In this document: positions 3,119-59,951 of the stretch, in pieces | How positions within the stretch are numbered: the stretch's first letter is position 1 | Layout of the letters: the number at the start of each line of letters is the position of its first letter | Source of the DNA: Parvularculaceae bacterium | GTDB taxonomy: Bacteria; Pseudomonadota; Alphaproteobacteria; Caulobacterales; Parvularculaceae | Length of the DNA stretch: 64,000 nucleotides | Direction: 5' to 3' | Assembly: GCA_028284065.1 (NCBI GenBank) | Contig: JANQSJ010000007.1 | Span: 1 to 64,000, forward strand | Position numbers and translations under genes: made by a program | Notes under the pieces: generated by a model | The model's database searches: none | Seen by the model: the letters and a program-made list of their open reading frames with translations, nothing else | What the model was told of the DNA's origin: nothing

Positions 3119-5587
3119 GTGGGGGCCGCTGTCGCATTCGCAACGCTTCTCAGCCACTGGCGGCGGCGGCCCTGGCAGGGCGTCATGCTGGTGGTCGGCC
3201 TCGCCGCCGCGACGGCGCTATTCTCTGGCGTCCAGGCCCTGAATTTCCAGGCGCGCCTCAATTACGACCAGGCGGAGCGGCAACTGGGCGGCGGCGGGCT
3301 GGCGGCGTATGTCGCGCCGTCCGGCGCGGCGTTCGATGAAGCGGCGTTCGCGGCGCTAAGGCGGCGGGGCGTCCTTGTCTCTCCTGTGGTGGAGGGACGC
3401 GTCGTCATCGGGAGCGACGCTTTCACCGTCCTCGGTATCGATCCCGCGACCGCGCCGCGGGACGCCGCCGTCGGCGGATTGTCCGCGCAAGGAGATGACG
3501 GTCCTGCGCCGGCGACGTTCCTGACGCCGCCCTACGCCATGCTCGCCGCGCCGGAGACCGTCCGTATCTTGAGTGGCGCGCGGGAGACGGCGGAAGGCGC
3601 GCCGCTGCCTCCATCGCGCGAAGCGTCGGGCATTGCGCCCTTTACGCTGGTCATGGACATCGGCGCGGCGCAGGGCCTCCTGAACAAGAAGGGCGCGCTC
3701 ACGCGCCTGCTGGTCGTCGACGACGCCGGCGCGCCGGATCGCATAGAGGCGGCCGGCGTCGACCTTATAAGGGTGGACGTCGGCGACGCCGGGGGCGCCG
3801 GCGCCCTGACGGGTAGTTTTCACCTCAACCTCACCGCCTTCGGCTTTCTGTCTTTTCTCGTTGGTTTGCTGATCGTGCGGTCGGCGGCGGGCCTCGCTTT
3901 CGAACAGCGCGTGGCGACGCTCCGGACGATGCGGGCGAGCGGCGTGACGACCGCCCAATTGACCGTGGCGATCGTCTGCGAAGCGCTTGCGGCGGCGCTG
4001 ATCGCCGGCGGGCTCGGTGTTCTCGCCGGGTATGCGGTCGCCGCCGTCATTTTGCCCGACGTGGCGCTGACGCTGCGCGGCCTTTATGGCGCGAACGTGT
4101 CAGGGGAACTTGTCGTTCGGCCCGTATGGGTCGCGCTGGCCCTTGCGATGAGCGTCGCCGGGGCGCTCGCCGCGTCCGCGGCGGGGGTTGTGCGGCTACG
4201 ATCATTGTCCGTACTCGACGCCGCAAAGCCGCACCTGTGGATGCGCGCGGCGGGCAGGGCGGCGCGCCGCGACGGCGCCCTTGCGGCGGGCGCATGTCTC
4301 ATCGCGCTTCTGGCGCTGATGGTTGGCGACGGCCTGATTGCCGGATTCGTTATTCTGGGCGCGGCGCTTCTGGCGGCCGCCCTGGCGCTCCCGCCGGCGC
4401 TCGGATGGATCGCTGCGCGGCTTGAGGCGCAGGCCGACGGCGCCGTGGCGCGCTGGTTTTGGGCCGATGCGCGCCAGCAACTGCCATCGCTTGCGCTGGC
4501 GCTTCAGGCCCTGATGATTGCGCTCGCCGCGAATATCGGCGTTGGGGCGATGGTGGGAAGCTTTCGGGACACATTCGTTGGCTGGCTCGATCAGCGGCTT
4601 GCGGCGGAGGCGTTCATCCGGCTCGGTCCTACCGTTGACGGCGACGAACTCGACGGATGGTTGGCGCAGCTGCCGGATGTGGTGAGAACGCTGCCGTTCG
4701 GCAGCGTATCGTCGCGGATCAATGGCGCGCCCGTTTCACTGCTCGGTTTTGTCGACGATGAAACGTATCGGGATAACTGGCCGCTTCTTGCGGCGGCCGA
4801 TGCGCCATGGCGACGCGTCGCGGACGGCGAGGCCGTGCTCATCAATGAACAGATGTTCCGTCGGCGCAACATATCTGTCGGCGACACGCTTGAGATCATG
4901 TCCCCCGCAGGTCCCTGGCCTGTCGTCGTCGCAGGGGTCTATTCGGACTACGGCAATCCCGCCGGGGAGGCGATGGCGAACATTGAGGCCGTGGCGGCGA
5001 GATGGCCCGAGTTTAATCCGCGGTTTCGTCAGATACGACTGTCGGCGAGCGATGAGTCGGACGCGGTTAGGCGATTCATGCAGGACGCCATCTCGCAGTT
5101 CGATCTCGATGAGGACGCGATCATCGACCAGAAATCGCTGAAGGCGTTCTCGGTGAGCGTTTTTGAACGGACATTCTCAGTGACGGCGGCGCTGAACGTG
5201 CTGACGCTGGCGGTTTCCGGCGTCGCGATGCTGACGGCGCTGAGCGCCCTGTCGGCGGCGCGTCTCACCATGCTTGCGCCCGCCTGGGCGATGGGTCTGA
5301 CGCGGGACCGCCTCGCCGGGCTCGATTTCGCGCGGACCATCGCGCTCAGCGCGCTCACCGCGGCGGCGGCGATCCCCGTCGGCGTCGTTATCGCCTGGGT
5401 GTTAACCGCGATCGTCAATGTGGAGGCGTTCGGCTGGCGCCTGCCGCTGCGTCATTATCCGGCGGACTGGGCGCGCCTCGCCGCCATCGCCATCGTGATC
5501 GCGGGGCTCGCCTCCGCGCCGTCGGCTTTGTCCCTGCGGCGCGCGTCTTCCGGCGACCTCTTGAAGGCTTTTTCGGCGGAGCGGTGA
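3119..5587 (+). CDS. FtsX-domain ABC permease (AttF/AttG-like, double unit)
   Basis: The product is 822 aa, a large inner-membrane permease. A first TM helix sits near residues 18-35. A periplasmic region follows, then FtsX-like TM bundles around 240-370, further TM helices at ~390-480, a second extracytoplasmic domain, and a final three-helix FtsX block from ~690 to 820. Two FtsX units in one chain are the usual form for LolC/YbbP-like and Att-type permeases. The start is GTG, 1 base after the ATPase stop, with GGAAAGG upstream, implying translational coupling. The stop overlaps the next reading frame's region (GTGA at 5584-5587). It should pair with the upstream ATPase to extract or secrete an envelope molecule. 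Confidence 0.88.
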   Translation: MGAAVAFATLLSHWRRRPWQGVMLVVGLAAATALFSGVQALNFQARLNYDQAERQLGGGGLAAYVAPSGAAFDEAAFAALRRRGVLVSPVVEGRVVIGSDAFTVLGIDPATAPRDAAVGGLSAQGDDGPAPATFLTPPYAMLAAPETVRILSGARETAEGAPLPPSREASGIAPFTLVMDIGAAQGLLNKKGALTRLLVVDDAGAPDRIEAAGVDLIRVDVGDAGGAGALTGSFHLNLTAFGFLSFLVGLLIVRSAAGLAFEQRVATLRTMRASGVTTAQLTVAIVCEALAAALIAGGLGVLAGYAVAAVILPDVALTLRGLYGANVSGELVVRPVWVALALAMSVAGALAASAAGVVRLRSLSVLDAAKPHLWMRAAGRAARRDGALAAGACLIALLALMVGDGLIAGFVILGAALLAAALALPPALGWIAARLEAQADGAVARWFWADARQQLPSLALALQALMIALAANIGVGAMVGSFRDTFVGWLDQRLAAEAFIRLGPTVDGDELDGWLAQLPDVVRTLPFGSVSSRINGAPVSLLGFVDDETYRDNWPLLAAADAPWRRVADGEAVLINEQMFRRRNISVGDTLEIMSPAGPWPVVVAGVYSDYGNPAGEAMANIEAVAARWPEFNPRFRQIRLSASDESDAVRRFMQDAISQFDLDEDAIIDQKSLKAFSVSVFERTFSVTAALNVLTLAVSGVAMLTALSALSAARLTMLAPAWAMGLTRDRLAGLDFARTIALSALTAAAAIPVGVVIAWVLTAIVNVEAFGWRLPLRHYPADWARLAAIAIVIAGLASAPSALSLRRASSGDLLKAFSAER

Positions 5588-5592
5588 TCGCC

Positions 5593-6681
5593 ATGCAGTT
5601 GATCCGCGCTCGGCCTTGCGCGCTCGCTATTGTTGCGGCGCTCTTGTTGATTGGACCGTCGAACGCTCAGGGCGTATTCGACCTCGGCCGCCAGATCGAC
5701 GGCTATGCCGCCGTCGCGCCCGATCGGACGTTCGCCTTTCCGGACGATCACGGCCCCCATGACGGCTACCGCGTCGAATGGTGGTATCTGACCGCGAACC
5801 TCGAAGCCGAGGACGGGCGGCGTTTCGGCGTTCAGTGGACGTTGTTTCGCATCCGCATGGCGCCGCCAGGCGAGGCGGACGACGCCGGCGCGTGGCGCTC
5901 GCCATACGTTTTCATGGGACATGCGGGCCTGACCAGCGGCGACGCGCATTTCAGCGCCGAACGGTTCGCCCGCGCCGACACCGGGCAAGCGGACGTTGCG
6001 GCCGCGCCGGCGTTCGAAGCGTTTATCGACGAGTGGCGGTTCGCCGCCGATGACGCGTCGGGGGACGGGTTGCGGACGGCGAGCGTTTCTGCTGGCGGAA
6101 AGGACTTCTCCTATGCGCTCGACCTCACCGCGACGGGGCCTATCGTGTTGCAGGGCGAGGGCGGCTACAGCCGCAAGTCCCCCGGTCCGCAGGCGTCCTA
6201 TTACTACAGCCAGCCGTTTTTCGACGCCGACGGAGAGATCGTCATTGACGGCGAACCCGTCGCCGTGACGGGCAAGGCGTGGATGGACCGCGAATGGTCG
6301 AGCCAGCTCCTGCGCGAGACCCAGAGCGGTTGGGATTGGCTCTCGCTGCATTTCGACGATGGCGACAAGGCGATGCTCTTTCGCTTACGCGATGGGACCG
6401 AAGGCGATTACTTCGCCGGGACGTGGATCGGCGCCGATGGGACCGCCCGGCCGATCGCAAGAGAGGAGATTTCCTTTGAGCCTCTGGCCCGCCGTCGAAA
6501 GGGACGCGCGCGCGTTCCTATCGCCTGGCGCGTGCAGGCAGGCGATCGCCGCGAGCGCCTTCGGATTGAGGCGCTGAACCCCGACGCCTTCATGGCCACA
6601 AGCTTTCCCTATTGGGAGGGGCCCGTCACGATCTCCGGCGACCGAACGGGCGTCGGCTACCTTGAAATGACGGGGTACTGA
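5593..6681 (+). CDS. Secreted AttH/carotenoid 1,2-hydratase-like lipocalin-fold protein
   Basis: The 362-aa protein has a signal peptide (hydrophobic residues ~8-23 ending near SNAQ). The mature part matches the CrtC/AttH (DUF2006-like) family: VEWWYLTANL with GVQWTLFR early, GKAWMDREW in the middle and WDWLSLHF after it. AttH proteins are paired lipocalin-like barrels exported to the periplasm; their enzymology is poorly known. It follows the permease within 6 bases, completing an AttEFGH-type cassette, so it probably handles the transported substrate, possibly a lipid. An in-frame GTG at 5584 would give 365 aa, but GGAG at 5578-5581 is better spaced for the ATG at 5593. Confidence 0.86.
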   Translation: MQLIRARPCALAIVAALLLIGPSNAQGVFDLGRQIDGYAAVAPDRTFAFPDDHGPHDGYRVEWWYLTANLEAEDGRRFGVQWTLFRIRMAPPGEADDAGAWRSPYVFMGHAGLTSGDAHFSAERFARADTGQADVAAAPAFEAFIDEWRFAADDASGDGLRTASVSAGGKDFSYALDLTATGPIVLQGEGGYSRKSPGPQASYYYSQPFFDADGEIVIDGEPVAVTGKAWMDREWSSQLLRETQSGWDWLSLHFDDGDKAMLFRLRDGTEGDYFAGTWIGADGTARPIAREEISFEPLARRRKGRARVPIAWRVQAGDRRERLRIEALNPDAFMATSFPYWEGPVTISGDRTGVGYLEMTGY

Positions 6682-6716
6682 CAGCCTGCGCGCAGCTTGG
6701 CGCGGGCGCGTTTTGC

Positions 6717-6857
6717 GCATCGGGCGCTACATACGCGTCGCCTCATCCTGAGGGATTTTTCTCCTCACCCTTCGAGACGCCAGCCAAGAAACTGGCTCCT
6801 CAGGGTGAGGAGAAAGATTGCCTCGAAGGAGAGCGATGCGGATGTAGCGCCCGATGC
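6717..6857. repeat. Nested palindromic element (REP/MITE-like)
   Basis: A perfect 16-bp inverted repeat bounds the element: GCATCGGGCGCTACAT (6717-6732) and its complement (6842-6857). Inside lies CCTCATCCTGAGG (6741-6753) and an inner hairpin with 11-bp arms CTCCTCACCCT (6761-6771) and AGGGTGAGGAG (6802-6812), itself containing GCCAG/CTGGC. The CCTCA(C/T)CCTGAGG type of core is familiar from dispersed intergenic palindromes of alphaproteobacteria. It fills the gap between two convergent genes. It could act as a bidirectional terminator or mRNA stabiliser; no protein is encoded. Confidence 0.85.
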
Positions 6858-6962
6858 TCCGCACCAAGCTGCGCTGACGTCCAAGGGTTCGGTTTGAAAG
6901 TTCGACATCGTCTTGCAGGGCATTGGGAAGACGTCATGAATCAGGGTCGGTGCAGCGTCGCT

Positions 6963-9900
6963 CTAGTCGCCCGCCCACACGTCGAGGGCGTAGCGCCCGT
7001 CCGCGGCCATGCCTTCCATCCAGGTTTCGGCCACTTCGTAAGAGACGTCCCTTTCCTCCGCATAGAGCGTCGTGATCGCACGCTTCACGTCCGGCTCCAT
7101 GGCCGAGCCGTCGCCGCACACATAGATGCGCGCGCCGGCGTCAATTAGGGCCCACACCTTCTCTCGCTCCTCGCGAATGAGGTCCTGCACATAGACGCGC
7201 CGCCCCTCATGCCGGGAAAAGGCGACTTTGAGGTCGATTACCCCTTCCGAGGCCGCTTCTTCCAGCTCCTCCCTGTAAAGAAAGTCCTGATCGGGGTGGC
7301 GGCAACCGAAAAAGAGGAGGGCGGCGCCCAGCGGCGCGCCGGCCGCTTTCTGTTCCCGGCGCTCCCGGATAAAGCCGCGGAATGGCGCGAGGCCGGTGCC
7401 GGGGCCGATCATGATGACCGGCGTCGCCGGGTCGGCCGGCAATTCAAATCCGCCGCTCGCCGGCTTGACGACGGCGTAGATGGTCTCGCCCATACGCGCC
7501 TCGGCGAGATAGTTTGAACACACCCCTTCATAGCGTCCGCGGCCAGATCGGGCCTCGCCTCCGACGACGCCAACAGTCACCGAGCAGCGCCGGGCGTCGG
7601 CGGCGGGCGAGGAGGATATCGAGTAATATCGCGGCGTCATCCAGGGGATGATTTCCAGGAACACCTCGAACGGCAGCTCGCACGCGGGAAACTCCTCCAG
7701 CAAGTCGAAGACCGACTTGCGCTTCAGAAAGACTTCGCTGCGGTAGATGTCTTCGCCGTTGACTTTCGGCGCGGCGAGTGCCTCCAGCTGAGACTTGGTG
7801 TCCGGACAACGCGTGTGGCGGGCAAGAATGCTGACGTCCTTGCGCGAGGCGACCGCCTGAAGCTCGCCATAGAGGTCGGCGAGGCGGCGCACGGAAAAGG
7901 TGGAGTCGTTCGGGAACGGACTTCTCCGCCCGCCGGTCGCATGGACGCGGATGAAGCTGTCGTCATTGAAGCCGAACCGTTTCATGACGCGGTCGACAAG
8001 CGCCGGGCGATTGACCGGCACGACGCATAAGTGGTCGCCCGGCTTGTAGGCGAGCCCCTCGGGAAGCTCCACCTCCACGTGGCGCGTCGAGCGCTCCGAC
8101 GCCGCGCCCTGGAGTTCGCTGTTCGCAACGATGGTCATCGGCAGCGCGCCCGTCTGGTTGGCGACCGGGTGCGCCGTCACGCTCTCCGCGACCTCAATCT
8201 GGTAGAGCGGTTCGGCCTCCTCCGCCTCGGCGACCTCAAGCTCAAGGTCGAGGGCCTTTGCGACCTGCGGCCATAAATCCTCCGTCCACGCCAGGAACTG
8301 GCCTTCCTGGTCGTCGCGGGCGTCGGCTTCGCCGCGATCCTTGATGCGCGCCGCTCCGGCGGCCGCCATCTTTTCGTCGATCGTGCGCGGCACGGCCTGA
8401 TAGGTCGCCGCCCAGTCGCGATTGCCGCAGCCGAATACGGCGTAGCGAACGCCCGCGAGCGCCTCCGCATCTAGGCCGTCCAGCCAGCCCATGAACTTCG
8501 CCGCATTGTCCGGCGGCGCGCCATTATAGGATGCGCTGGCGATGATAACGGCGCCCTTGGCGGGCAGCTTGCCCACATAATCATCGAGCGGCGCCAACGT
8601 CGTTTCGAAACCGTTCAAGTCGCCCGCATTGGCGATTTCGCGGGCGAACCCCTCCGTCGCGCCGAGGTTTGATCCGTAAAGGATGCAAAGCGGCGTCCCG
8701 TGGCGCGGCGCGCGCTGCTTCGCCGCCTCATCCTTTTCCGCGGTTTCGTTCGCAACGGGCGCCAGCGCGCTGCGCGTGACGCCGGCCCGCATGCGCACCC
8801 GCATCCGAAAGCCGTCCGGCTTGATCGACATCGTCTCCTTGACCTTCAGGTCATAGTCATGCGGATCGAGCAGTTCGAAACGCTGCAGGATCATGCCGAG
8901 GACAAGCGTCGCCTCCTGCATGGCGAACTGACGACCGATGCAGGCCCGTCGGCCATTGCCAAATGGCTTGTAAGCGGCTGCGGGCCGCGCCGCCTCCGCC
9001 TCGCGCGAAAAATTGTCCGGGTTGAAGGCGTCAGCGTCCGGCCCCCAGATCTCCGGGTCGCGATGCAGCATCAAGGTCAGGACGGTCGTGAACGTGCCCT
9101 TCTTAAGGAAATAACCGTCGCCGATCGTTTCGTCTTCATAAGGATAGACGCTGAACGCCGGCGCGGTCGGCCATAGGCGCAGGGATTCCAGGAGAATGGC
9201 GCGAACATAGTCGAGCTTGCTGATCTGCCTGTAGGTCGGCGCGGCGGCGACGTCGCGGCCGAGAACCTCGTCCACTTCCGCGTAGGCCTTCGCCAGCGCG
9301 TCGGGGTTCTTCAACAGGAAGTAGAGCGTGAACGACAAGAGCCCCGACGTCGTCTCGTGCCCGGCGATAAGGAAGGTGTTGATCTGATAGCGGATGTTCT
9401 CGTCGGAAAGGCTCTCGCCGGTCGCCTTGTCGACGCCCTGAAGCATGTAGTTAAGTAAATCGTTGGCGACTGCGCCGTCGGACGCGGCGCCGTTGACGCG
9501 CGCGCGCTTTCGCTCGCGGATGATTTCATCGACGAGATTGTTCATGTACGCCGCGTCCTGGCGCAACTGGTCGAGCCGGCTTCTGAGCGCAACATTCTCG
9601 AAGGGCAGGCCGCGTTGCAGCATGCAGGTTTCGAGCGTGCGCGTCAGGGCGTCGATAAAAGGGTGAAAATCGCGGCGGTAGAAAGAATTGAAGCGGTAGT
9701 CGAACCCGCACAGGCCGATCGTGTCGAGCGCGAGGCCCGTCATGTCATGGACGACGTCGATGTCGTCGTCAGCGTTCATCCGCTCCCATTTCAGGACAAG
9801 CTGATTGGCGATATCGACCATCATCGGCAGATAGTCGACCATCGCCTTCTGCGCGAAGGTCGGCAGGAGGATGTTATGCGCCTTCGACCAGTTCGGCGCC

Positions 9901-10190
9901 GACGTGTCGGCGGTGAAAAGCCCGTCCTCCGCAATCGTCCGCACCCGTTTCAGGGCGCCGCGGACGGCCTTGTCGAAGCGGCTTTCGTCGCACAGCTCTT
10001 CAACCAGCTTCGTTCCCGACACGATGACCATGGGTTTGCCCATCATGTTGAGCCAGAAAATCGGCCCGTGCCGGCGCGTCAGGTCCATCAAGCCCTGAAG
10101 AGGCGCCTCGGCGTCGATGGTCATGGCGTTGCCGAGAATGGGCTGTCCCGGCGGATTGGGAATCGGGTGGAGCGGGTTCTTGCTCGCCAT
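6963..10190 (-). CDS. Bifunctional cytochrome P450/NADPH-P450 reductase (CYP102, P450-BM3 type)
   Basis: The 1075-aa self-sufficient monooxygenase fuses a heme domain to FMN and FAD/NADPH reductase domains. The heme domain shows the I-helix AGHETT (276-281), ExxR (E335-R338) and the heme loop FGNGRRACIG with ligand Cys417. Phe92 sits in DGLFT, the place of BM3 Phe87 over the heme. The reductase part has a flavodoxin FMN loop (ILYGSNLGATEGFA), the FAD motif RYYSISSS and NADPH motif GPGTGLAPFRGF, and ends YALDVWAGD like BM3. Known members hydroxylate medium/long-chain fatty acids near the omega end. The ATG at 10190 has AGGGAGGG upstream; a longer frame from 10274 lacks that support. It lies 92 bp downstream of the peroxidase gene on the same strand. 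Confidence 0.97.
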   Translation of the reverse strand: MASKNPLHPIPNPPGQPILGNAMTIDAEAPLQGLMDLTRRHGPIFWLNMMGKPMVIVSGTKLVEELCDESRFDKAVRGALKRVRTIAEDGLFTADTSAPNWSKAHNILLPTFAQKAMVDYLPMMVDIANQLVLKWERMNADDDIDVVHDMTGLALDTIGLCGFDYRFNSFYRRDFHPFIDALTRTLETCMLQRGLPFENVALRSRLDQLRQDAAYMNNLVDEIIRERKRARVNGAASDGAVANDLLNYMLQGVDKATGESLSDENIRYQINTFLIAGHETTSGLLSFTLYFLLKNPDALAKAYAEVDEVLGRDVAAAPTYRQISKLDYVRAILLESLRLWPTAPAFSVYPYEDETIGDGYFLKKGTFTTVLTLMLHRDPEIWGPDADAFNPDNFSREAEAARPAAAYKPFGNGRRACIGRQFAMQEATLVLGMILQRFELLDPHDYDLKVKETMSIKPDGFRMRVRMRAGVTRSALAPVANETAEKDEAAKQRAPRHGTPLCILYGSNLGATEGFAREIANAGDLNGFETTLAPLDDYVGKLPAKGAVIIASASYNGAPPDNAAKFMGWLDGLDAEALAGVRYAVFGCGNRDWAATYQAVPRTIDEKMAAAGAARIKDRGEADARDDQEGQFLAWTEDLWPQVAKALDLELEVAEAEEAEPLYQIEVAESVTAHPVANQTGALPMTIVANSELQGAASERSTRHVEVELPEGLAYKPGDHLCVVPVNRPALVDRVMKRFGFNDDSFIRVHATGGRRSPFPNDSTFSVRRLADLYGELQAVASRKDVSILARHTRCPDTKSQLEALAAPKVNGEDIYRSEVFLKRKSVFDLLEEFPACELPFEVFLEIIPWMTPRYYSISSSPAADARRCSVTVGVVGGEARSGRGRYEGVCSNYLAEARMGETIYAVVKPASGGFELPADPATPVIMIGPGTGLAPFRGFIRERREQKAAGAPLGAALLFFGCRHPDQDFLYREELEEAASEGVIDLKVAFSRHEGRRVYVQDLIREEREKVWALIDAGARIYVCGDGSAMEPDVKRAITTLYAEERDVSYEVAETWMEGMAADGRYALDVWAGD

Positions 10191-10282
10191 TGTCGTGTCC
10201 CTCCCTTCGCGCAGCGCCGCCGCCCATTGAGGGATCAGCCGCGCGCGTCGCAGGTCGCCGTTCGCCGACAGCAAAGGTCGGG

Positions 10283-11589: not shown

Positions 11590-12696
11590 ATGGCAGCCGG
11601 TAACCGGTCCGCCGGGCAGGCCGAGAAGGACGCCGCTTCGGCGAAGCTTGGCGCGCGCGTAAGGGGGCTGGTCGAAAAGACCATCCAGCGGAACATCAAG
11701 GGCGTCGAATACTTCGCTTCCGCCGCGCCGCCGGTGGGGCTCACCCCGAAAGACACGATCTATAAGCGGGGCACCCTTAATCTCTATCACTATCGGCCGC
11801 AGACGGAGGATGTCTATCGCGTGCCGATCCTCATCGTCATGGCGACGACCAATCGGTCCTACGTTCTCGATATCGCCAAGGGCGCGAGCTTTATCGAGTT
11901 TCTGGTCTCCAATGGCTACGATGTCTATGCGATTGACTGGGACCCGCCGCGGCCCGAAGAGAAGCGCCTCGACCTTGCATCGTATACGCAGGATTTCATT
12001 CCGTCCTGCATCCGAAAGGTGCAGGAGGCGTCGGGCGAAGCGGATGTGACGATCCTTGGCTACTGCATGGGAGGCGTTCTGTCGGTGATCTATGCGGCGA
12101 CGCATCCCGACGGGCCGATGAAGAACCTCGTCTGCTTTACGACGCCGATAAACTGGCACGAAATGGGCCTTTTCAGCGTCTGGTCGGACCGCCAGCATTT
12201 TGACGTCGACCGCCTTGTGGACATGGTCGGCAATGTGCCGCCTGACCTCATCATGACATCGTTCGACATGTTGCGGCCTGTGGGCAAGCCGGCGGCGCGC
12301 GCGCAGCTGTGGGAGAACATGTGGAACGACGCCTATGTCGAAAACTTCCGCAAGTTCGACCGCTGGGCGAACGAGACCCTGCCGCTGGCGGGAGAGTATT
12401 TCCGTCAGACGACGAAGGACCTCATGTGGGGCAACAAGCTCTATAAGGGCGAGCTTGTCGTCGGCGGCAAAAAGGCGGACATCGGACAGATCAAGGCGCC
12501 GCTCCTCCACGCCGTCGCTCAACATGACCATATCATCCCGCGCGGCGCGAGCGCGCCGCTCATCGAACTTGCAGGCTCTGAGGACAAGGAGGAGCTTGTC
12601 CTGAAGGGCGGGCATATCAGCCTTGTGGCGGGCGCGAACGCCGTGCGCCGGCTATGGCCGAGCCTTGATGAATGGCTTTCGGAGAGATCCCTATGA
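11590..12696 (+). CDS. phaC: Class III-type poly(3-hydroxyalkanoate) synthase subunit PhaC
   Basis: The 368-aa alpha/beta hydrolase-fold polymerase has the PhaC lipase-like box GYCMGG with nucleophile Cys159. The acidic residue is in AQHDHIIP and the catalytic His in GGHISLV near 340. Length (~350-370) and the absence of the long N-terminal domain place it with class III/IV catalytic subunits, which need a small partner; the upstream gene is the obvious candidate. The ATG is preceded by AGGTGAGGAG. The stop overlaps the next start (ATGA, 12693-12696). It polymerises (R)-3-hydroxyacyl-CoA on cytoplasmic granules. A separate, larger class I-like synthase lies at 39.6-41.7 kb. Confidence 0.92.
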   Translation: MAAGNRSAGQAEKDAASAKLGARVRGLVEKTIQRNIKGVEYFASAAPPVGLTPKDTIYKRGTLNLYHYRPQTEDVYRVPILIVMATTNRSYVLDIAKGASFIEFLVSNGYDVYAIDWDPPRPEEKRLDLASYTQDFIPSCIRKVQEASGEADVTILGYCMGGVLSVIYAATHPDGPMKNLVCFTTPINWHEMGLFSVWSDRQHFDVDRLVDMVGNVPPDLIMTSFDMLRPVGKPAARAQLWENMWNDAYVENFRKFDRWANETLPLAGEYFRQTTKDLMWGNKLYKGELVVGGKKADIGQIKAPLLHAVAQHDHIIPRGASAPLIELAGSEDKEELVLKGGHISLVAGANAVRRLWPSLDEWLSERSL

Positions 12697-13481: not shown

Positions 13482-14285
13482 ATGTCTGAGAGCCAGTTGA
13501 ACCTGTCCCGTCCGCCCCTTCCGTATGCGCTGCTGGAGGCGGGCAGAGCGCTTGGCGAAATGTCGCTTCTGCCCGCGGCGGAACTGCCGCTCAGCCTTGC
13601 GCCGACCGGGGATGGCCACTCGGTCGTCGTCTGCCCGGGGTTTCTGACGAGCGATCGCGCGACAGGATTCCTTAGGCGCTTTATCCGCAGCAAGGGCTAT
13701 AACGTCTACGGATGGAATCTCGGCCGCAATCTCGGCCCCGGCCATGAGGGCCGGAACATGGACGAGCTTGCGGACTGGGTCCTCAATGTCTATCGCCAGT
13801 CGCGCCGGCGGGTGTCGCTCGTCGGATGGTCGCTCGGCGGCGTCATGGCGCGCGAACTCGCCAAACGCATGCCGGACGTCATCCGCCAGGTGATTACACT
13901 CGGCAGCCCGATCGCCGGCCAGCCGGAGGCGTCAACTATCGCCTGGGTCTATGACCGGGTCGCCGGGCCGCTCGATGAAGCCTCGCCGGAAATGCAGATG
14001 CTGATCGACCGTCTGCACCATCCGCCGGAATACACGCCCTCGACGGCGATCTTTTCAAAGACCGACGGCATTGTCCCGTGGCGCGGCTGCATTGAGCGTG
14101 AAGCGCCGCTGACGGACAATATCGAAGTGGTCGCGAGCCATTGCGGCCTCGGCGTCAATCCGTTTGTCTTCTTTGCCGTGGCGGACCGGTTGGCGTTGCC
14201 CGAAACCGAATGGTCGCCCTTCGACCGGCGGGCTTCCGCCTGGCGGCGCGTCGCCTATCCGACGGCCGGGCACGTCTACGGCTGA
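13482..14285 (+). CDS. Alpha/beta hydrolase, lipase-like (PGAP1/TAG-lipase-like)
   Basis: The 267-aa protein is a serine hydrolase. VVVCPGFLTSD forms the oxyanion region, GWSLGG holds nucleophile Ser118, the acid is in KTDGIVPW (~Asp199) and the catalytic His in ASHCGLGVNP (~219). No signal peptide is evident, so it is probably cytoplasmic. The HCGLGVNP ending is shared by triacylglycerol-lipase-like proteins that often neighbour wax ester synthase/DGAT genes. It lies between the PHA operon and the wax synthase operon, so turnover of storage lipid is a reasonable guess. A 207-bp upstream region containing a TATAA/TTATA repeat (~13281-13293) separates it from the GNAT gene. Confidence 0.8.
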   Translation: MSESQLNLSRPPLPYALLEAGRALGEMSLLPAAELPLSLAPTGDGHSVVVCPGFLTSDRATGFLRRFIRSKGYNVYGWNLGRNLGPGHEGRNMDELADWVLNVYRQSRRRVSLVGWSLGGVMARELAKRMPDVIRQVITLGSPIAGQPEASTIAWVYDRVAGPLDEASPEMQMLIDRLHHPPEYTPSTAIFSKTDGIVPWRGCIEREAPLTDNIEVVASHCGLGVNPFVFFAVADRLALPETEWSPFDRRASAWRRVAYPTAGHVYG

Positions 14286-14378: not shown

Positions 14379-14819
14379 TTACGCGTCGGCGCCGTGGCGA
14401 ACGCGATCGCGCAGGTTGGCGAGATAGTCCGCCACCGGCTCCATCGACTCGCGCGAGCCGGTCGCCGTGAGCGATGCGACTTCGCGCACCTGAGCGACGT
14501 TGCGCTCAATGCCCTCGCGCAGGGCGTCGCGCTGGATGCGCATGGAATCGGTGAGCGAGTCCGCCTGCATCACGTCGCGCAGCGCCTCGAACGTGGCGTC
14601 AGTGTTGTCCTGCGCATTGCCGATGAGCGTCATCAGGATGTCGCGACGTTTCTCGTCGGCGATCGAGCCGGATTCGGCGAGAGCCGCGCCAGCTTCACGG
14701 AAGCCCGCCTGGATACGCTCCAGGATCGGCTCGACCGTCGTTTCAGCCTGCGTTTCGGCGGCCTTCCTGGCCGTCGTCTTCTTGGCGGTTTTCTTGGTCG
14801 TCTTTTTCGCGGTGGCCAT
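14379..14819 (-). CDS. Phasin-like protein with lysine-rich N-terminal tail
   Basis: The 146-aa protein begins with a histone-like stretch (KKTTKK at 5-10, then more KKT/RK repeats to ~20). It continues as an amphipathic, glycine-poor helical protein typical of phasins that coat PHA or lipid granules. There is no cysteine or enzyme motif. It is the third gene of a minus-strand run after wax ester synthase/DGAT and a hydrolase (gaps of 23 and 29 bp), so it is probably co-transcribed with them. The helical part suggests granule coating and the basic tail suggests nucleic-acid contact; both are inference from composition. It could instead be a general stress-related helical protein. Confidence 0.65.
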   Translation of the reverse strand: MATAKKTTKKTAKKTTARKAAETQAETTVEPILERIQAGFREAGAALAESGSIADEKRRDILMTLIGNAQDNTDATFEALRDVMQADSLTDSMRIQRDALREGIERNVAQVREVASLTATGSRESMEPVADYLANLRDRVRHGADA

Positions 14820-14848: not shown

Positions 14849-15790
14849 TCAGGCGGGTTCGGTTTCGCGGGGCGCCGTTTCGCCTGGGGCGGCGCCGCCT
14901 TCAGCCGAGCGAAGATGCCCGGCCAGCAAGTCGTTAATCCGCGGCAGGAATTTCGGCGGCAGATCGTGGGCCATGCCGTCGATGATCTCCACGCGCGCGC
15001 CGGGAACGCTCGCGGCGATGTCGAGCCCGGCGCGCAGCGGCGTCAGCGGGTCGATAGACCCGTGAATGACAAGCGTCGGCGCCTCGACCCGCCGCGCGAA
15101 CCGTCGCAGATCGCCGGTAGCGATGATCGCCGCGATCTGGCGGCGGATGCCGGCGGGATAGGTGCAGCGGTCGACGGCGCCGGCGATGCGGGCGCGGAAT
15201 TCGTCGGGGTCATTGCCGCCGTCCGGCGTGCCGATCATGTTCCAGAGCGCGACCGAGCGATCGATGAGTTCCTCGCGCGTGCGCGGCCTCGTCCGGACCG
15301 CGAATATCTCCTGCAGGATCTTCGGGTCGGCTTTCGGCAGCGACGGATTGTTCGTGCTCGACATGATTGTCGTAAGCGAGATCACCCGGTCCTTGTGATT
15401 GGCAGAAAGGATTTGGCCGATCATCCCGCCCATGGAGACGCCGACAACGTGCGCCGCGTCGATGTCAAAGGCGTCGAGGACGCCGACGCTGTCGCGCGCC
15501 ATGTCTTCGAGCGTGTAGGGCGCGAGCGCGCTCGCGAACGGCAGGCGCGACAGGACGGCGAACGCCGTCGGCCGCGGCGCGCGCTTCGCGTGCAGCTTCT
15601 GCGACAGGCCGACATCGCGATTGTCCATGGCGAGGACGCGGTAGCCTGCGTCCGCAAGCGCATCGACGAAGGCGTGGGGCCAGTGCGTCAGCTGCGCGGC
15701 GAGCCCCATGATGAGGAGAACGGCCGGACCGTCTTTCGGTCCGTGCGTCTCCACCTCGATGTCGATGCCGTTCGCCTTGATCAGCGGCAT
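14849..15790 (-). CDS. Alpha/beta hydrolase (esterase/PHA-depolymerase-like)
   Basis: The 313-aa protein has an alpha/beta hydrolase fold: LLIMGLAAQLTHW forms the oxyanion strand, GVSMGG carries nucleophile Ser119, the acid is in HGSIDPLTP (~Asp247), and the His is in DGMAHDLPP (~276). No export signal is present. Family members include esterases and intracellular PHA or haloalkane-type hydrolases, so the substrate is open. The gene is sandwiched between the wax synthase/DGAT and phasin-like genes with short gaps, which points to storage-lipid mobilisation. The C-terminus is a short Ala/Pro/Glu-rich extension. Confidence 0.83.
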   Translation of the reverse strand: MPLIKANGIDIEVETHGPKDGPAVLLIMGLAAQLTHWPHAFVDALADAGYRVLAMDNRDVGLSQKLHAKRAPRPTAFAVLSRLPFASALAPYTLEDMARDSVGVLDAFDIDAAHVVGVSMGGMIGQILSANHKDRVISLTTIMSSTNNPSLPKADPKILQEIFAVRTRPRTREELIDRSVALWNMIGTPDGGNDPDEFRARIAGAVDRCTYPAGIRRQIAAIIATGDLRRFARRVEAPTLVIHGSIDPLTPLRAGLDIAASVPGARVEIIDGMAHDLPPKFLPRINDLLAGHLRSAEGGAAPGETAPRETEPA

Positions 15791-15813: not shown

Positions 15814-17592
15814 TTAGTGAATAGTCGGCGATGCGCCGCCATCTGCGCCGGCCGAAACGACAGCCTCCTGATCGGCCGCCAGCGCCGCGGCCTGCGCGAG
15901 CCAGCCGTCGCGGGCCGGGCGGCCGCGAAGCCCGAGCGCCTCGTCCAGTTCATCGACCTGCGAGGGCGTGAGGGCGGCGAGCTGTTCAAACGTCTTCAGG
16001 CCGGCATTGCGCAGCCGTTCGGCGAGCCGCGCGCCGACCCCCTTGATGCGGGTCAGGTCATCTTCGCGGCGCCCCGCCGGCGCGGCCTTCGGCGCCGCGC
16101 CGTTGGCGGCCTTGCGCACGCGCTTCTTCTCCGTGCGCGGCTTCACCGCGGCGGCGTAAAGTTCGTCGAACGACGCCTGCAGGCAGTCGCGGTAAAAGGC
16201 GGGGTCGGGCAGCATTTCCCGGCAGCCGGTCAGCGTGACGGCGATCTGGCCGCAATAGCTGGTGACGGCATGGAAGAGCCCCATGGAGTCCATCACCGGG
16301 CCGATGCCGTAGGCGCTGACGAGCCGCGCGCCCGCCATGTAAAGAGGGACCTGCGGCCCCGGCACATTTGTAACGACCGTGTTGAACATGGGCGACAGGC
16401 GATTGGCGAGGCCGAGACGCGAGTAGAGACGGGCGGAGACGCCGGACACCATTGCGGGCGCGAGGTTCGAGGCTTCCGACAGCTCCCGCGCGCCGACGGC
16501 TTTCGACATCGCTTTCTGGTTCGCCGCGACATCGTGCGTGTAATGAAGCCGCGCCAGCGGATCGGCGATATGCGTGCCGAGCGGGATGGAAAGCGCCGTC
16601 ACCTGGTTGCCCAGGGCGTTCTTCTCGTCTTTCGTCCGCACCGAGACGGGCGCCATGGCGATAAGCGACTCCTTCGGGAGTTCATCCTTCGCCTTCAGAT
16701 AGTTGCGCAGGCCCCCGCCGACGATGGCGAGGACAGCGTCGTTTACTGTCGCGCCGGGAATCCGCTTACGGATTTTTTTGATGTCGTCGAGGTCGAATAC
16801 GACGCCATCGACAACGCGGTTGCTGGAGACAATTCCGTTAAAGCGCGTGCGCGGCACTTTCGCGCCAAGAAGTTTGATCTCGCCCGAGGTGAGGCCGCTT
16901 GCGAATTTCAATGCGCCAGGCGCCATGCGACGCGCGACCCGCAAGCCGTAGAACGGCTTGGTGACATTGTTGAAGTTCGCGCGGGCGATGAGCTCAAGAT
17001 CGCTTGGCTCGCGCCGCGGCGTCCAGGGGCCGACTTCCTCTTCGACCTCTTCGTCCGGCGCCAGGCTATGGATCGCTTCGGCGATGTCGACGCCGGACGC
17101 GCCGTCGATGGCGCAGTGATGCACCTTGGCGACGATCGCATAGGACCCCTTCGGAATGTTCGGGATGTTGTCGAGGCCCTCGACGACCGTGAACTCCCAG
17201 AGCGGCTTCGACATATCGAGCGGCCGGGCGTGCAGACGCGCAATCTGTATGCAGAGCTGACGCCAGTCGCCGGGATGCGGCAGGGCGATATGGCGGATGT
17301 GAAACTCGATATCGAAATCCGGATCGTCGACCCAGTAGGGATGATCATAGCCGAGCGGCACGCGCTTCAGCTTCTGACGAAAGGTCTTCGCCCTGTGCAG
17401 GCGCTCCTCGACGTGGGCGAGGATATCCTTGAAGCGGACCTTGCCGCCGGGCGCCGTGGACGGATCGTAAATCTTGCAATCGCCGATATGCATCGGCGTG
17501 CGCGGGCCTTCCGCATAGGCGAAGAGGGCGTCGAGGCCGGTCAGTTGCTCCGGCGACCATTCGCGGATGAGGTCTCCAAGGCGTTTCGCCAT
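15814..17592 (-). CDS. Wax ester synthase/diacylglycerol acyltransferase with C-terminal HhH module
   Basis: The 592-aa protein belongs to the bifunctional WS/DGAT family that makes wax esters or triacylglycerol from acyl-CoA. The catalytic HHCAIDG (HHxxxDG) is at 158-164, KPLWE at 129-133, and the conserved NVPGPQVPLYMAG block is near 410. Normal members end at ~460-500 aa. This one continues through a basic linker (EKKRVRK) into a helix-hairpin-helix module of about 60 residues (DDLTRIKGVGARLAERL, then a GLRGR turn and WLAQAAAL). That module is otherwise seen on NuoE or L21-type proteins and on the small protein at 58.5 kb. It heads a three-gene minus-strand operon with a hydrolase and a phasin-like protein. 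Confidence 0.93.
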   Translation of the reverse strand: MAKRLGDLIREWSPEQLTGLDALFAYAEGPRTPMHIGDCKIYDPSTAPGGKVRFKDILAHVEERLHRAKTFRQKLKRVPLGYDHPYWVDDPDFDIEFHIRHIALPHPGDWRQLCIQIARLHARPLDMSKPLWEFTVVEGLDNIPNIPKGSYAIVAKVHHCAIDGASGVDIAEAIHSLAPDEEVEEEVGPWTPRREPSDLELIARANFNNVTKPFYGLRVARRMAPGALKFASGLTSGEIKLLGAKVPRTRFNGIVSSNRVVDGVVFDLDDIKKIRKRIPGATVNDAVLAIVGGGLRNYLKAKDELPKESLIAMAPVSVRTKDEKNALGNQVTALSIPLGTHIADPLARLHYTHDVAANQKAMSKAVGARELSEASNLAPAMVSGVSARLYSRLGLANRLSPMFNTVVTNVPGPQVPLYMAGARLVSAYGIGPVMDSMGLFHAVTSYCGQIAVTLTGCREMLPDPAFYRDCLQASFDELYAAAVKPRTEKKRVRKAANGAAPKAAPAGRREDDLTRIKGVGARLAERLRNAGLKTFEQLAALTPSQVDELDEALGLRGRPARDGWLAQAAALAADQEAVVSAGADGGASPTIH

Positions 17593-39605: not shown

Positions 39606-41747
39606 CTAGGACGTTACTTTGACATAGGCGCCGGGCGCATCTTCGATCGGGGCGAGGTCGCCGTCGCCGGGATGACGCGCGTCGACGCGGCCGGGGCTTT
39701 CGCGGTCGAGCCACGCCATCCAGTAGGACCACCAGGAACCGGCGCGTTTCTCCGCCCCCTCTTTCCACTCTCCAAGAGTTTCAGGCAGACCTTCGTTGAC
39801 GGAGTGATGGTATTTTTTCTTGTCGGGATGATTGATGACGCCGGCGATATGGCCTGAGCCGGCCAGCATGTAGGTCACCTTGTCCGCGCCGTCCCGCGCC
39901 ATCAGGCGCGCCGTTCTGTAGACGGAGTTGTGGGGGGCGATGTGGTCGGTCTCGCCGGCCTGAAAGAACATCGGGAGGTCGACCTCGCCGAGATCGAGGG
40001 TTTCGCCGTCGATGATCATTTCGCCCTTGGCGAGGCGGTTCTTCTGATAGAATTCGCGCAAATAGAAGAGGTGGACGTTCTTCGGCATGCGCGTGGAATC
40101 CGAATTCCAGAACAGGAGGTCGAACCGCGCCGGGTCCTTGCCCATCATGTAGTTGTCGATGACGAACTGCCAGATGAGATCGTTCGAGCGCAGCATGTTG
40201 AAGGTCGTCGCCATGGCGCGGCCTTCAAGCACGCCGCCGGCCGCGTCCATCTGCTTCTCGATCGACTCCAGTTGCGCATCGTCCACGAACAGGAGGAGGT
40301 CGCCGGCCTCGGTGAAATCGGCCTGGGCGGTGAAGAAGGTCGCGGTCTTGATCCGGTCGTCCCCCCGCCGCGCCATCAGCGCGAGCGCAGTGGCGAGCAT
40401 TGTTCCGCCAATGCAGTAGCCGATTGCGTCGACGCCGGGCTCCCCGACGGCTTTCTCCACCGCGTCGAGCGCCTCGAAGCAGCCCTGCTTGATATAGTCT
40501 TCGAACGTCTTGTCTGCGAGCTCCGGACCCGGATTGACCCATGAGACGACGAAAACCGTCCTGCCCTGATCGACCATCCATTTGATGAAGGAGTTCTTGG
40601 GCTGAAGATCGAGGATGTAGAACTTGTTGATCCAGGGCGGAAAGATGAGGAGCGGACGCTTGGCGACCTGTTCCGTCGTCGGCTCATACTGGATGAGCTG
40701 CAAGATCTCGTTCTGATAGACGACCTTGCCCTTTGTGGTCGCAACGTTTTCGCCAAGCTTGAAATAGTCGAGGTCCGCCTGACGGATGGCGAGGTCGCCA
40801 TGGCCGCGGTCGATGTCCTCCAGAAGGTTCTTGAGGCCCTTCATGAGGTTCTCGCCGCGCGACGCGAGCGTCGCCTCGACGACTTCGGGGTTCAGCATCG
40901 GGAAGTTCGTCGGCGACAGCGCGTCGATGAACTGCTTGGTGTAGAACTCCGCGCGCCGCTTGTCGTAGTCGTCCTCCATCTCAAGTTCTTCGACGGTGCC
41001 GCTAAGCCATTTCGATGTGATGAGATAGGACTGCTTTATGAAATCCAGCAGGTAATTGTCCGTCCACGCCGGGTGTCGAAAGCGCTTGTCGGCTGCGTCA
41101 GGTTGGATCGTCGGCTTGACTTGCTCGCCTGAAAGTCGACGCGAGGCGCTCGCCATCAGTTTGGCGTAATCGCCCCAGAGATTGAACTGGCGCTGCATGA
41201 CGGTCGCGGGATCTGCCGCCAAGCCTTGCATCATTTCCTTGTAGGCTTCGCCGACATTAAGCGGATCGGCGGAGCGGCGCCCCTGGGCGATGTCGACCAT
41301 GTCGCGGTTCTTGCCGAGAAACTCGGCGATGACGTCCTGGCTCTTGCCGCTCACGTCGGCGAGATAGGAAGAGAGCGCGTCGAAGTCTTCGATAAGGCTG
41401 GCCTGGGCGTCGCGTTCCGTAGCGCCAGCTGCTGCGCCGGCCGCATTTTCGGCGGCGGTTGCGCCCTGTTTTGCGGCTTTCGGCGCGGCTTTTTGGGCGT
41501 CGCCTCCCGGCGACTTGCCGGCCGGCGCGCTTTTTCGCGGCGTCTTCCCGGTCGCCGCTCCGCTTGCTGAGACGCCGTTCTCCGACTTCTTGCGCGTCGC
41601 TTTCCTGGCTGTCGCCTTCTTTGTGGCGGTCTTCTTCGTCGCCGGACTCGCCTTCGGCCCGGCCTTCGGCGTTCGTTTCGCGTCCGCCCCGGTTGCATCA
41701 TCTGAGCCGGCGTCATTCGCCGGCGTTGGTTGTTCCGCTTGCGTCAT
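39606..41747 (-). CDS. phaC: Class I poly(3-hydroxyalkanoate) synthase with long basic N-terminal tail
   Basis: The 713-aa cytoplasmic polymerase has a class I PhaC core from about residue 115. The PhaC N-terminal domain includes [19 protein letters not shown] (223-241), [14 protein letters not shown] lies near 368-381, lipase-like GYCIGG holds nucleophile Cys445, and the Asp/His pair are in ETDHIAPH and GSGHIAG. Usual class I enzymes are ~590 aa; the excess is a ~105-residue Lys/Ala/Thr/Pro-rich tail (24-94 most basic, with [18 protein letters not shown]) resembling PhaF or histone H1 tails. It is monocistronic and convergent with nothing close. It differs in class from the PhaC at 11.6 kb. 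DNA binding by the tail is inferred. Confidence 0.95.
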
Positions 41748-58548: not shown

Positions 58549-58947
58549 CTAGGGCGCTTCGCCGCACAGTCCGCGCGCCTGTTCGATCCAGCGTTCGCGG
58601 CCGACCCGGCCTGGTTCGCCAAACTGGCTTTCAATCCAGCGGGCGTGGGCGTCGGTCCAGCCGGCGATCTGGGTGAAATGATAAACGCCGAGCCCATGCA
58701 GGCGTTGAGCGGCGGCGGCGCCGATTCCGATGATCTGCGTCAGGTCGTCGGCGTTCCCTTCCGGTTCGGCGAGGCGCCGAGGCTCCTGCGCCGGCGGCGC
58801 TTCCACCGCCGCGGCGTGATCCGTGGGCGTCGACGCGACGTCAATCGCAGCGCTTCCGCGCCGCGGCGACGCCAGCCAGCCGGCGCCGACGCCGGCCGCA
58901 AACGCCGCAAAGAGATAAATCCATATCTCCGCGATCAGCCAGATCAT
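58549..58947 (-). CDS. Small membrane-anchored helix-hairpin-helix protein
   Basis: The 132-aa protein has one N-terminal TM helix (~4-24) and a linker. An HhH module follows from about residue 66: NADDLTQIIGIGAAAAQRLH, then YHFTQIAGWT and RERWIEQARGL. The same module is at the end of the wax synthase/DGAT at 15.8 kb and on many NuoE/L21-type proteins. Its role is unclear; DNA, protein or assembly contact are options. The start overlaps the OmpA-family stop (ATGA), so the two are one operon. Confidence 0.82.
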   Translation of the reverse strand: MIWLIAEIWIYLFAAFAAGVGAGWLASPRRGSAAIDVASTPTDHAAAVEAPPAQEPRRLAEPEGNADDLTQIIGIGAAAAQRLHGLGVYHFTQIAGWTDAHARWIESQFGEPGRVGRERWIEQARGLCGEAP

Positions 58948-59951
58948 CGCGATCCTCCCCGTCCTGAGGCTGCATCCTCGATGGCGGACACCTCAATCGT
59001 GACGCGACGATTGCGCGCCGCCGCGTCGGGCGTTCCAGGCGGCGCCGCCGGTCGACTGGAGCCATAGCCCACGGCCTCAACGCGCCGTCGCGGCAGGCCG
59101 AACCCCGCCAGGATGTCACGGATGTTCTGAGCGCGCGCGAGGCTGAGCCGCCGGTTGACGCGTTCCGACCCTGTGGAGTCAGTATGGCCGCCAACGACGA
59201 TCCGGACCGCGCCGCATTGTTTCAGCGCGCCGGCGGCCGCCTCAAGATAGCGAACTGAGTTGGGACTGGGGCGCTCGGAGTTTCGCACAAATGAGACGCC
59301 GTCCTCAGAACCGACTGCGGCCAGGCGGTCGCGGCAGGCGGCGACTGGGCCCCCGGCGTCGGACGCGACGTCTGCGATTTCGACGGCGGCGTCGCCGGGT
59401 CGTCCAACGGGAGCGTCGCGAAGGGCAGACGTGGCGGCGGGGTCGTCCGTCAGCGGATTTTCCGCGTTTTCGCCCGCGGATGCGGCCAGCTTCGATGACG
59501 CGCCGGCGGTTACGCCGGGGTCGGAGAGGTTCGGATCGGCCTCGGAAGCGACCGGCGCGGGCGAAAGGGGCGCGGCGAGGTCGGCCTCGGCGACGGCGGG
59601 CAGGATTACCCGTAGTGCGTCTGCATTGACCGACGCAATGCCGCCGGCGATCGTCCCGCCTCGGCCGCTTGCGCGAAGCGCAGCCTGCGCCGCCGCCTCG
59701 ACGGCCGAGGGGTCAAGCGCCTCGCCGACAAGATCTGCGCGGCGGCCGCGCATCTCCACAGACATCCCGCGCGCGCCGACCGTCGCGGCGAGGGCGGCCT
59801 CAACGTCGCGCTGAAGTTTGCGCTCGACCCCCGGCGCAAGGGCGAAGGCGAGCGCCAGCGCGGCGGCCGCGGCCGCCGGAAAGCTGGCCCCCAAAGGGAC
59901 ATGAATATCACGCGCAGCCACTTGATCGACTCTGGACGTCCAAAACTCCAC
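58944..59951 (-). CDS. OmpA-family protein (peptidoglycan-binding C-terminus)
   Basis: The 335-aa protein has an N-terminal hydrophobic helix (~23-40), a BON-like region with repeated EAALAA-type helices, a long Ala/Pro-rich linker, and an OmpA-like domain. That domain carries VGGHTDSTGSERVNRRLSLA (~255) with the meso-DAP-binding Asp and Arg, and ends RNRRVTIEVS. It probably links inner membrane or periplasm to the cell wall. The start is GTG with a poor site; a second GTG at about 59924 is an alternative. It is followed by the HhH gene with a 4-bp overlap. Confidence 0.85.
   Translation of the reverse strand: MEFWTSRVDQVAARDIHVPLGASFPAAAAAALALAFALAPGVERKLQRDVEAALAATVGARGMSVEMRGRRADLVGEALDPSAVEAAAQAALRASGRGGTIAGGIASVNADALRVILPAVAEADLAAPLSPAPVASEADPNLSDPGVTAGASSKLAASAGENAENPLTDDPAATSALRDAPVGRPGDAAVEIADVASDAGGPVAACRDRLAAVGSEDGVSFVRNSERPSPNSVRYLEAAAGALKQCGAVRIVVGGHTDSTGSERVNRRLSLARAQNIRDILAGFGLPRRRVEAVGYGSSRPAAPPGTPDAAARNRRVTIEVSAIEDAASGRGGSR

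Follow-up and report, generated by a model that had tools for sequence, protein, structure and literature searches.

The Caulobacter phasin PhaH, for which Salinas et al. 2023 is reportedly the primary paper, is a storage-granule protein that carries a helix-hairpin-helix (HhH) cassette. According to excerpts of a review, its N-terminus binds PHB granules and its HhH domain binds DNA non-specifically, and the granules are placed along the nucleoid (PMC13052382). The Rhodococcus protein MLDS joins lipid droplets to genomic DNA and has a lysine-rich tail that binds DNA without sequence specificity, as stated in the available portion of a report (PMC5504291). Mycobacterial HBHA has been linked to lipid inclusions in one article available in part (PMC6176652) and named a nucleoid-associated protein in another (PMC10665949).

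Here, we analyse a fusion of a wax ester synthase/DGAT (WS/DGAT) to an HhH cassette, encoded in a window of 64,000 nucleotides (the whole stretch of DNA considered) from a Parvularculaceae bacterium. To our knowledge, the spacing and sharing-out of neutral-lipid bodies in bacteria has been little studied, and the open-access literature yielded nothing relevant on WS/DGAT with HhH, on L21 with HhH, or on lipid droplets, nucleoid and wax ester synthase together. We propose, at an even chance of being right, that the wax-ester/TAG bodies made by the enzyme are fastened to the nucleoid by the enzyme itself, as in a PhaH-type system transferred to the synthase; we infer its localisation to lipid bodies, its binding of DNA and its positioning role.

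Architecture and conservation of the fusion

The gene lies at 15814..17592, minus strand, where one uninterrupted frame with an ATG start specifies a protein of 592 amino acids; it is the sole WS/DGAT detected in a search of the 3.74-Mb source genome. The family model TIGR02946 matches residues 17–482 over its full length (449.9 bits against a cutoff of 309.95), and the N-terminal 482 residues are by this measure a normal WS/DGAT, a predicted acyltransferase. The domain search proposed in the initial annotation recovered both WS/DGAT Pfam domains, the catalytic WS_DGAT_cat (aa 17–287, 16732..17544, minus strand; PF03007, E 1.1e-66) and WS_DGAT_C (aa 328–478, 16159..16611, minus strand; PF06974, E 4.8e-33), while the DUF4332-like match it had suggested was weak and below cutoff (E 0.0037). 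The two sequence blocks it had called normal were found by direct reading: HHCAIDG at aa 158–164 (17101..17121, minus strand), an instance of HHxxxDG, which we take to be the WS/DGAT active-site motif, and NVPGPQ at aa 409–414 (16351..16368, minus strand).

Past the end of the enzyme, an HhH module follows a basic linker, as the initial annotation had described. The linker comprises 28 residues (aa 483–510, 16063..16146, minus strand; pLDDT below 50 at 489–508) and the module 65 residues (aa 511–575, 15868..16062, minus strand) with a pLDDT of about 80 over most of its length; the full-length structure prediction is poor (mean pLDDT 49). A 17-residue end follows and closes in PTIH (15817..15828, minus strand), whose terminal histidine is common to PhaH proteins. 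Pfam HHH_5 (PF14520) falls just short of its threshold at aa 511–545 (26.5 bits against a 27-bit cutoff). The HhH ends of the NCBIfam models for PhaH, L21, NuoE and S2 match the window C-terminus at E 1e-13 to 1e-18, scores under each family's whole-protein cutoff that are nonetheless, as sequence similarity, far beyond chance. For PhaH (NF045508), positions 142–233 of 234 align with aa 479–573 at E 6.2e-17; the 62.5 bits lie under the 250-bit cutoff, with the HhH cassette end matching and the N-terminal phasin region not. This homology to the PhaH cassette argues for the tether.

The same architecture is conserved in five further genomes, so that the fusion is genuine, as had been claimed: G139 (84% identity), G293 (80%), G223 (71%), G035 (63%) and G252, which belongs to another family of the same order. 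The closest named relatives of the gene come from Parvularculaceae and other Alphaproteobacteria MAGs, and tails at three further loci (L037, L038 and L039) are identical in kind to those of G293, G139 and G223 respectively. Comparing the source genome (G000) with G139, we found a dN/dS of 0.09 in the core and 0.06 in the HhH module; over the 26 codons of the linker it is about 1.9. Purifying selection on the module is thus as strong as on the core in this pair, which also favours the tether. Similarity is higher in the HhH than in the linker for every genome pair, several of them saturated at silent sites, and together with the dN/dS this indicates that the module is translated and kept.

These data bear on a frameshift or fusion artefact, which the initial annotation had expected to show up as two separate genes in relatives. 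No relative with separate WS/DGAT and HhH genes was seen, the fusion is intact in all six genomes, and an artefact is ruled out on these grounds and by the module dN/dS. Such cassettes have moved often between genes, and one could therefore picture a neutral passenger; the six intact fusions and the selection on the module strongly disfavour a cassette without function, whether passenger or assembly artefact, and we regard this as very improbable.

Hosts, charge and fold of the HhH cassette

Sequence comparison indicates that, in Alphaproteobacteria, the HhH module has moved between genes as a C-terminal cassette. At the loci read, its hosts are L21, L3, S1, S2, NuoE, membrane-anchored proteins, phasin-type proteins and WS/DGAT, with part of the host labels, here and in the charge and tree comparisons, assigned by eye from sequences. 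The source genome also carries HhH on L21 and a weak copy on L3. A second module lies in the window itself (58549..58947, minus strand) on a short protein with a membrane-anchor-like N-terminus, adjoining a gene that is OmpA-like by eye (58944–59951, minus strand); elsewhere, a membrane-anchored protein (L185, G367) bears two HhH cassettes in tandem. This host range speaks against the tether reading, and a role confined to storage is at odds with hosts from the ribosome and the respiratory chain.

The main rival explanation draws on this breadth: the cassette would dock proteins to proteins, its hosts binding either a shared partner or one another, with no part for DNA. Ribosomal proteins, complex I, reaction centres, granule proteins and membrane anchors are all among its hosts, and on most of them the modules are near-neutral to acidic. 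WS/DGAT modules are themselves near neutral (median net charge −1, range −3 to +4) against +1 to +6 for the three phasin-labelled modules, a difference that counts against a DNA tether. On the other side, the review excerpts credit this very domain with the DNA binding of PhaH (PMC13052382), and positions 48 and 51, beside the hairpin glycine, are each basic in 65 of 69 modules, though on all hosts. Across the 69 modules, G8, L17 and W54 are invariant, and G10, G47 and Q57 each occur in 66.

The HhH model, with helices at 32–40, 46–50, 54–64 and 72–93 (model numbering) and a pLDDT of about 80 over the module, matched NusA repeats, RadA/Rad51, Pol theta and polymerase HhH domains at Z 6–9 by structural comparison. 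Foldseek returned RadA, NusA and polymerase matches at E above 0.2 and none below 0.001. The C-terminal repeats of NusA are protein-binding, and their place among the best matches favours docking and weighs against the tether, even though RadA/Rad51 and polymerases are fold neighbours as well. Taken together, the fold searches point at most to an HhH-like fold and make no choice between DNA and protein binding. Among the fold-search matches, 6hix_BS, 7aoi_BS and 7aih_As are kinetoplastid mitochondrial large-ribosomal-subunit chains, possibly the remnant of a ribosomal protein with an HhH tail. Sequence searches gave two solved relatives of the cassette, a complex I subunit chain (9wqv) and the D. 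shibae reaction-centre protein-O; the C-terminal domain of protein-O comes after a long flexible loop and is untraced in the structure, according to part of the report (PMC12079452), an arrangement that suits docking too. A single shared protein partner is, by contrast, hard to reconcile with the H1-like basic tails that stand in the same place on related synthases, described below, and overall we consider protein docking doubtful.

In G035 (L153), WS/DGAT-HhH (5384–7207, minus strand) and L21-HhH (7458–8141, plus strand) are divergent and about 250 bp apart, and such a pair is a possible route of transfer. The module tree, with 65 columns and 39 of 66 forks open, cannot decide whether the WS/DGAT module came from L21, and a single origin of the fusion is neither rejected (AU p 0.133) nor demonstrated. 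The enzyme of G243 lacks HhH and still ends in PALH; the retained end fits a loss of the HhH by internal deletion.

Storage genes and tails of related synthases

Twenty-three nucleotides downstream of the fusion gene lies an alpha/beta hydrolase (14849..15790, minus strand; PF00561, E 4e-27), probably in the same operon, and 29 nt beyond it a phasin with a KKTTKKTAKKTTARK N-terminus (14379..14819, minus strand; PF09361, E 1.4e-9). WS/DGAT, hydrolase and phasin genes stand in this order in G000, G139, G293, G223 and L040, the last with a WS/DGAT without HhH, and the operon phasins start with KKTTKKTAKK-like stretches. The phasin in conserved gene order speaks for the tether. Also near the operon, and conserved in relatives, are a PhaC-like alpha/beta hydrolase (11590–12696, plus strand) and a lipase-like gene (13482–14285, plus strand). 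A cytochrome P450 of 1103 aa, joined to a flavodoxin/FAD reductase in one BM3-like protein (6963–10274, minus strand), is near the locus in G139 too. The window further encodes a PHA synthase (39606..41747, minus strand; PF07167) with a lysine/alanine-rich N-terminal extension of about 100 residues; a lysine-rich extension of varying length is also present in Parvularculaceae orthologues, and the PHA synthase matches of G252 and of G195 and G150, the latter two with PhaH, are without it.

We searched for PhaH in 52 of the 57 WS/DGAT-bearing genomes (all except G023, G048, G062, G082 and G162) and found full-length PhaH-like proteins in eight, all in family f2. None of the six genomes with the fusion contained a PhaH-type phasin, G293 being just 66% complete. 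This absence counts in favour of the tether. We considered a mutual exclusion of PhaH and WS/DGAT-HhH, which never occur together in one genome among the 52; the pattern is, however, confounded with lineage and was set aside, and the confounding tells against the tether argument as well. A C-terminal histidine links the two groups: it is present in six of six WS/DGAT-HhH proteins (ends PTIH, PTVH, ATVH, ASVH, GTVH and ATRH) and seven of eight PhaH proteins (ends ALIH, ATLH, TTLH, DAQH, DTQH, GTQH and ATQH), against none of 62 other HhH proteins, with partners in this count assigned by short motifs. By reading, the residue before the last but one is T, S or A in 6/6 and 6/8, respectively. The shared histidine supports the tether as a hint rather than a statistic because the sample holds two clades alone.

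We surveyed the tails of 112 distinct WS/DGAT frames, which remained after identical frames and one partial frame (L064) were dropped and which come from genomes other than G282, G286, G023, G062, G072, G082 and G162. Six carry HhH, 56 have K/R-rich tails of at least 30 residues, seven have short basic tails, 12 have other tails of at least 30 residues and 31 have none or a very short one; since stretches were fetched with 300-base flanks, the longest tails may be clipped and a few last residues may not be the true end. A density of at least eight lysines per 30 residues is found in none of the 112 enzyme bodies, against 51 of the 68 non-HhH tails that are 30 residues or longer. H1-like basic tails on 56 of 112 enzymes, set beside the DNA-binding lysine-rich tail described in the available text on MLDS (PMC5504291), argue for the tether.

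In a core tree of 84 of the 112 frames (phmmer score at least 380), the six fusions share a starred clade of ten with four enzymes that have basic tails, so that all ten carry either HhH or a basic tail, again in favour of tethering. Three of these four (L041–L043) are from gammaproteobacterial Woeseiaceae; as they lie within an alphaproteobacterial clade and bear H1-like tails in place of HhH, their position suggests gene transfer and tail exchange.

Basic tails could also act without DNA, the linker and tails binding anionic phospholipids on the surface of a lipid body or membrane and the HhH merely stabilising or spacing the tail. The tails are strongly basic and WS/DGATs act at lipid interfaces, both of which suit this explanation. 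Yet the G139 linker has few basic residues (5 K/R in 28, the whole tail at net −2), the HhH of that protein is 88% identical to that of the window and is constrained as the linker drifts, and the 31 enzymes whose tail is very short or absent are likewise at odds with it; we find surface binding quite unlikely. The same 31 also indicate that the enzyme family can do without a tether.

A putative nucleoid tether and its likeness to known systems

The initial annotation had offered protein assembly, membrane placement or nucleic-acid contact as roles for the module. This was a valid set of options, and placement at the nucleoid now leads among them because PhaH, a reported DNA-binding granule phasin, bears the same cassette. 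In the mechanism we propose, the acyltransferase core would sit on the growing neutral-lipid body and make its content, and the HhH cassette, held on a flexible basic linker, would act as the tether by binding the nucleoid without sequence preference. Each lipid body would then be spread along the chromosome and inherited with it. A broader version, which we think unlikely, makes the cassette a general nucleoid-docking tag of Alphaproteobacteria for large machines and storage bodies alike, carried by ribosomal proteins, complex I, photosynthetic cores, membrane anchors, phasins and lipid synthases and moved in the storage branch onto the synthase; with the tag there, every lipid body would be born already tethered.

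If the tether holds, a single polypeptide may both make lipid and fasten it to DNA, and the tail survey, with H1-like basic tails on half of the WS/DGATs examined, suggests that synthase-borne tethering could be common. The fusion also offers a concrete and cheap way into the role of a widespread cassette that occurs on ribosomes and respiratory complexes as well.

Compared with known systems, the fusion shares with Caulobacter PhaH (NF045508) a C-terminal HhH cassette and an association with storage bodies, putative here, and with the PhaH-like proteins of family f2 the C-terminal histidine (7/8); it differs in that the N-terminus of PhaH is a non-enzymatic PHB-granule-binding phasin domain and here is the lipid synthase itself. 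The closest solved WS/DGATs, 7nxg and 6chj, have the same catalytic core (E 3e-54 and 9e-46) and are 463 and 455 residues long; their matches stop at query aa 463 and 478, with no HhH matched. HhH-tailed L21, NuoE and D. shibae protein-O have a homologous C-terminal cassette on unrelated hosts, namely the ribosome, complex I and the photosynthetic core. MLDS of Rhodococcus jostii RHA1 resembles the proposed system in bridging droplets and DNA, and its lysine-rich tail resembles those of related WS/DGATs; it is a major droplet protein with PAKKA motifs and not a WS/DGAT, and the available part of its report describes no HhH (PMC5504291). Direct reading of aa 483–592 of the window protein showed no PAKKA motif. 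PhaF, PhaM and AlgP are likewise granule proteins that reach the nucleoid, through a histone-like domain; they are not lipid synthases, and the review excerpts name no HhH in them (PMC13052382), whereas in the fusion described here the putative tether is an HhH cassette on the synthase.
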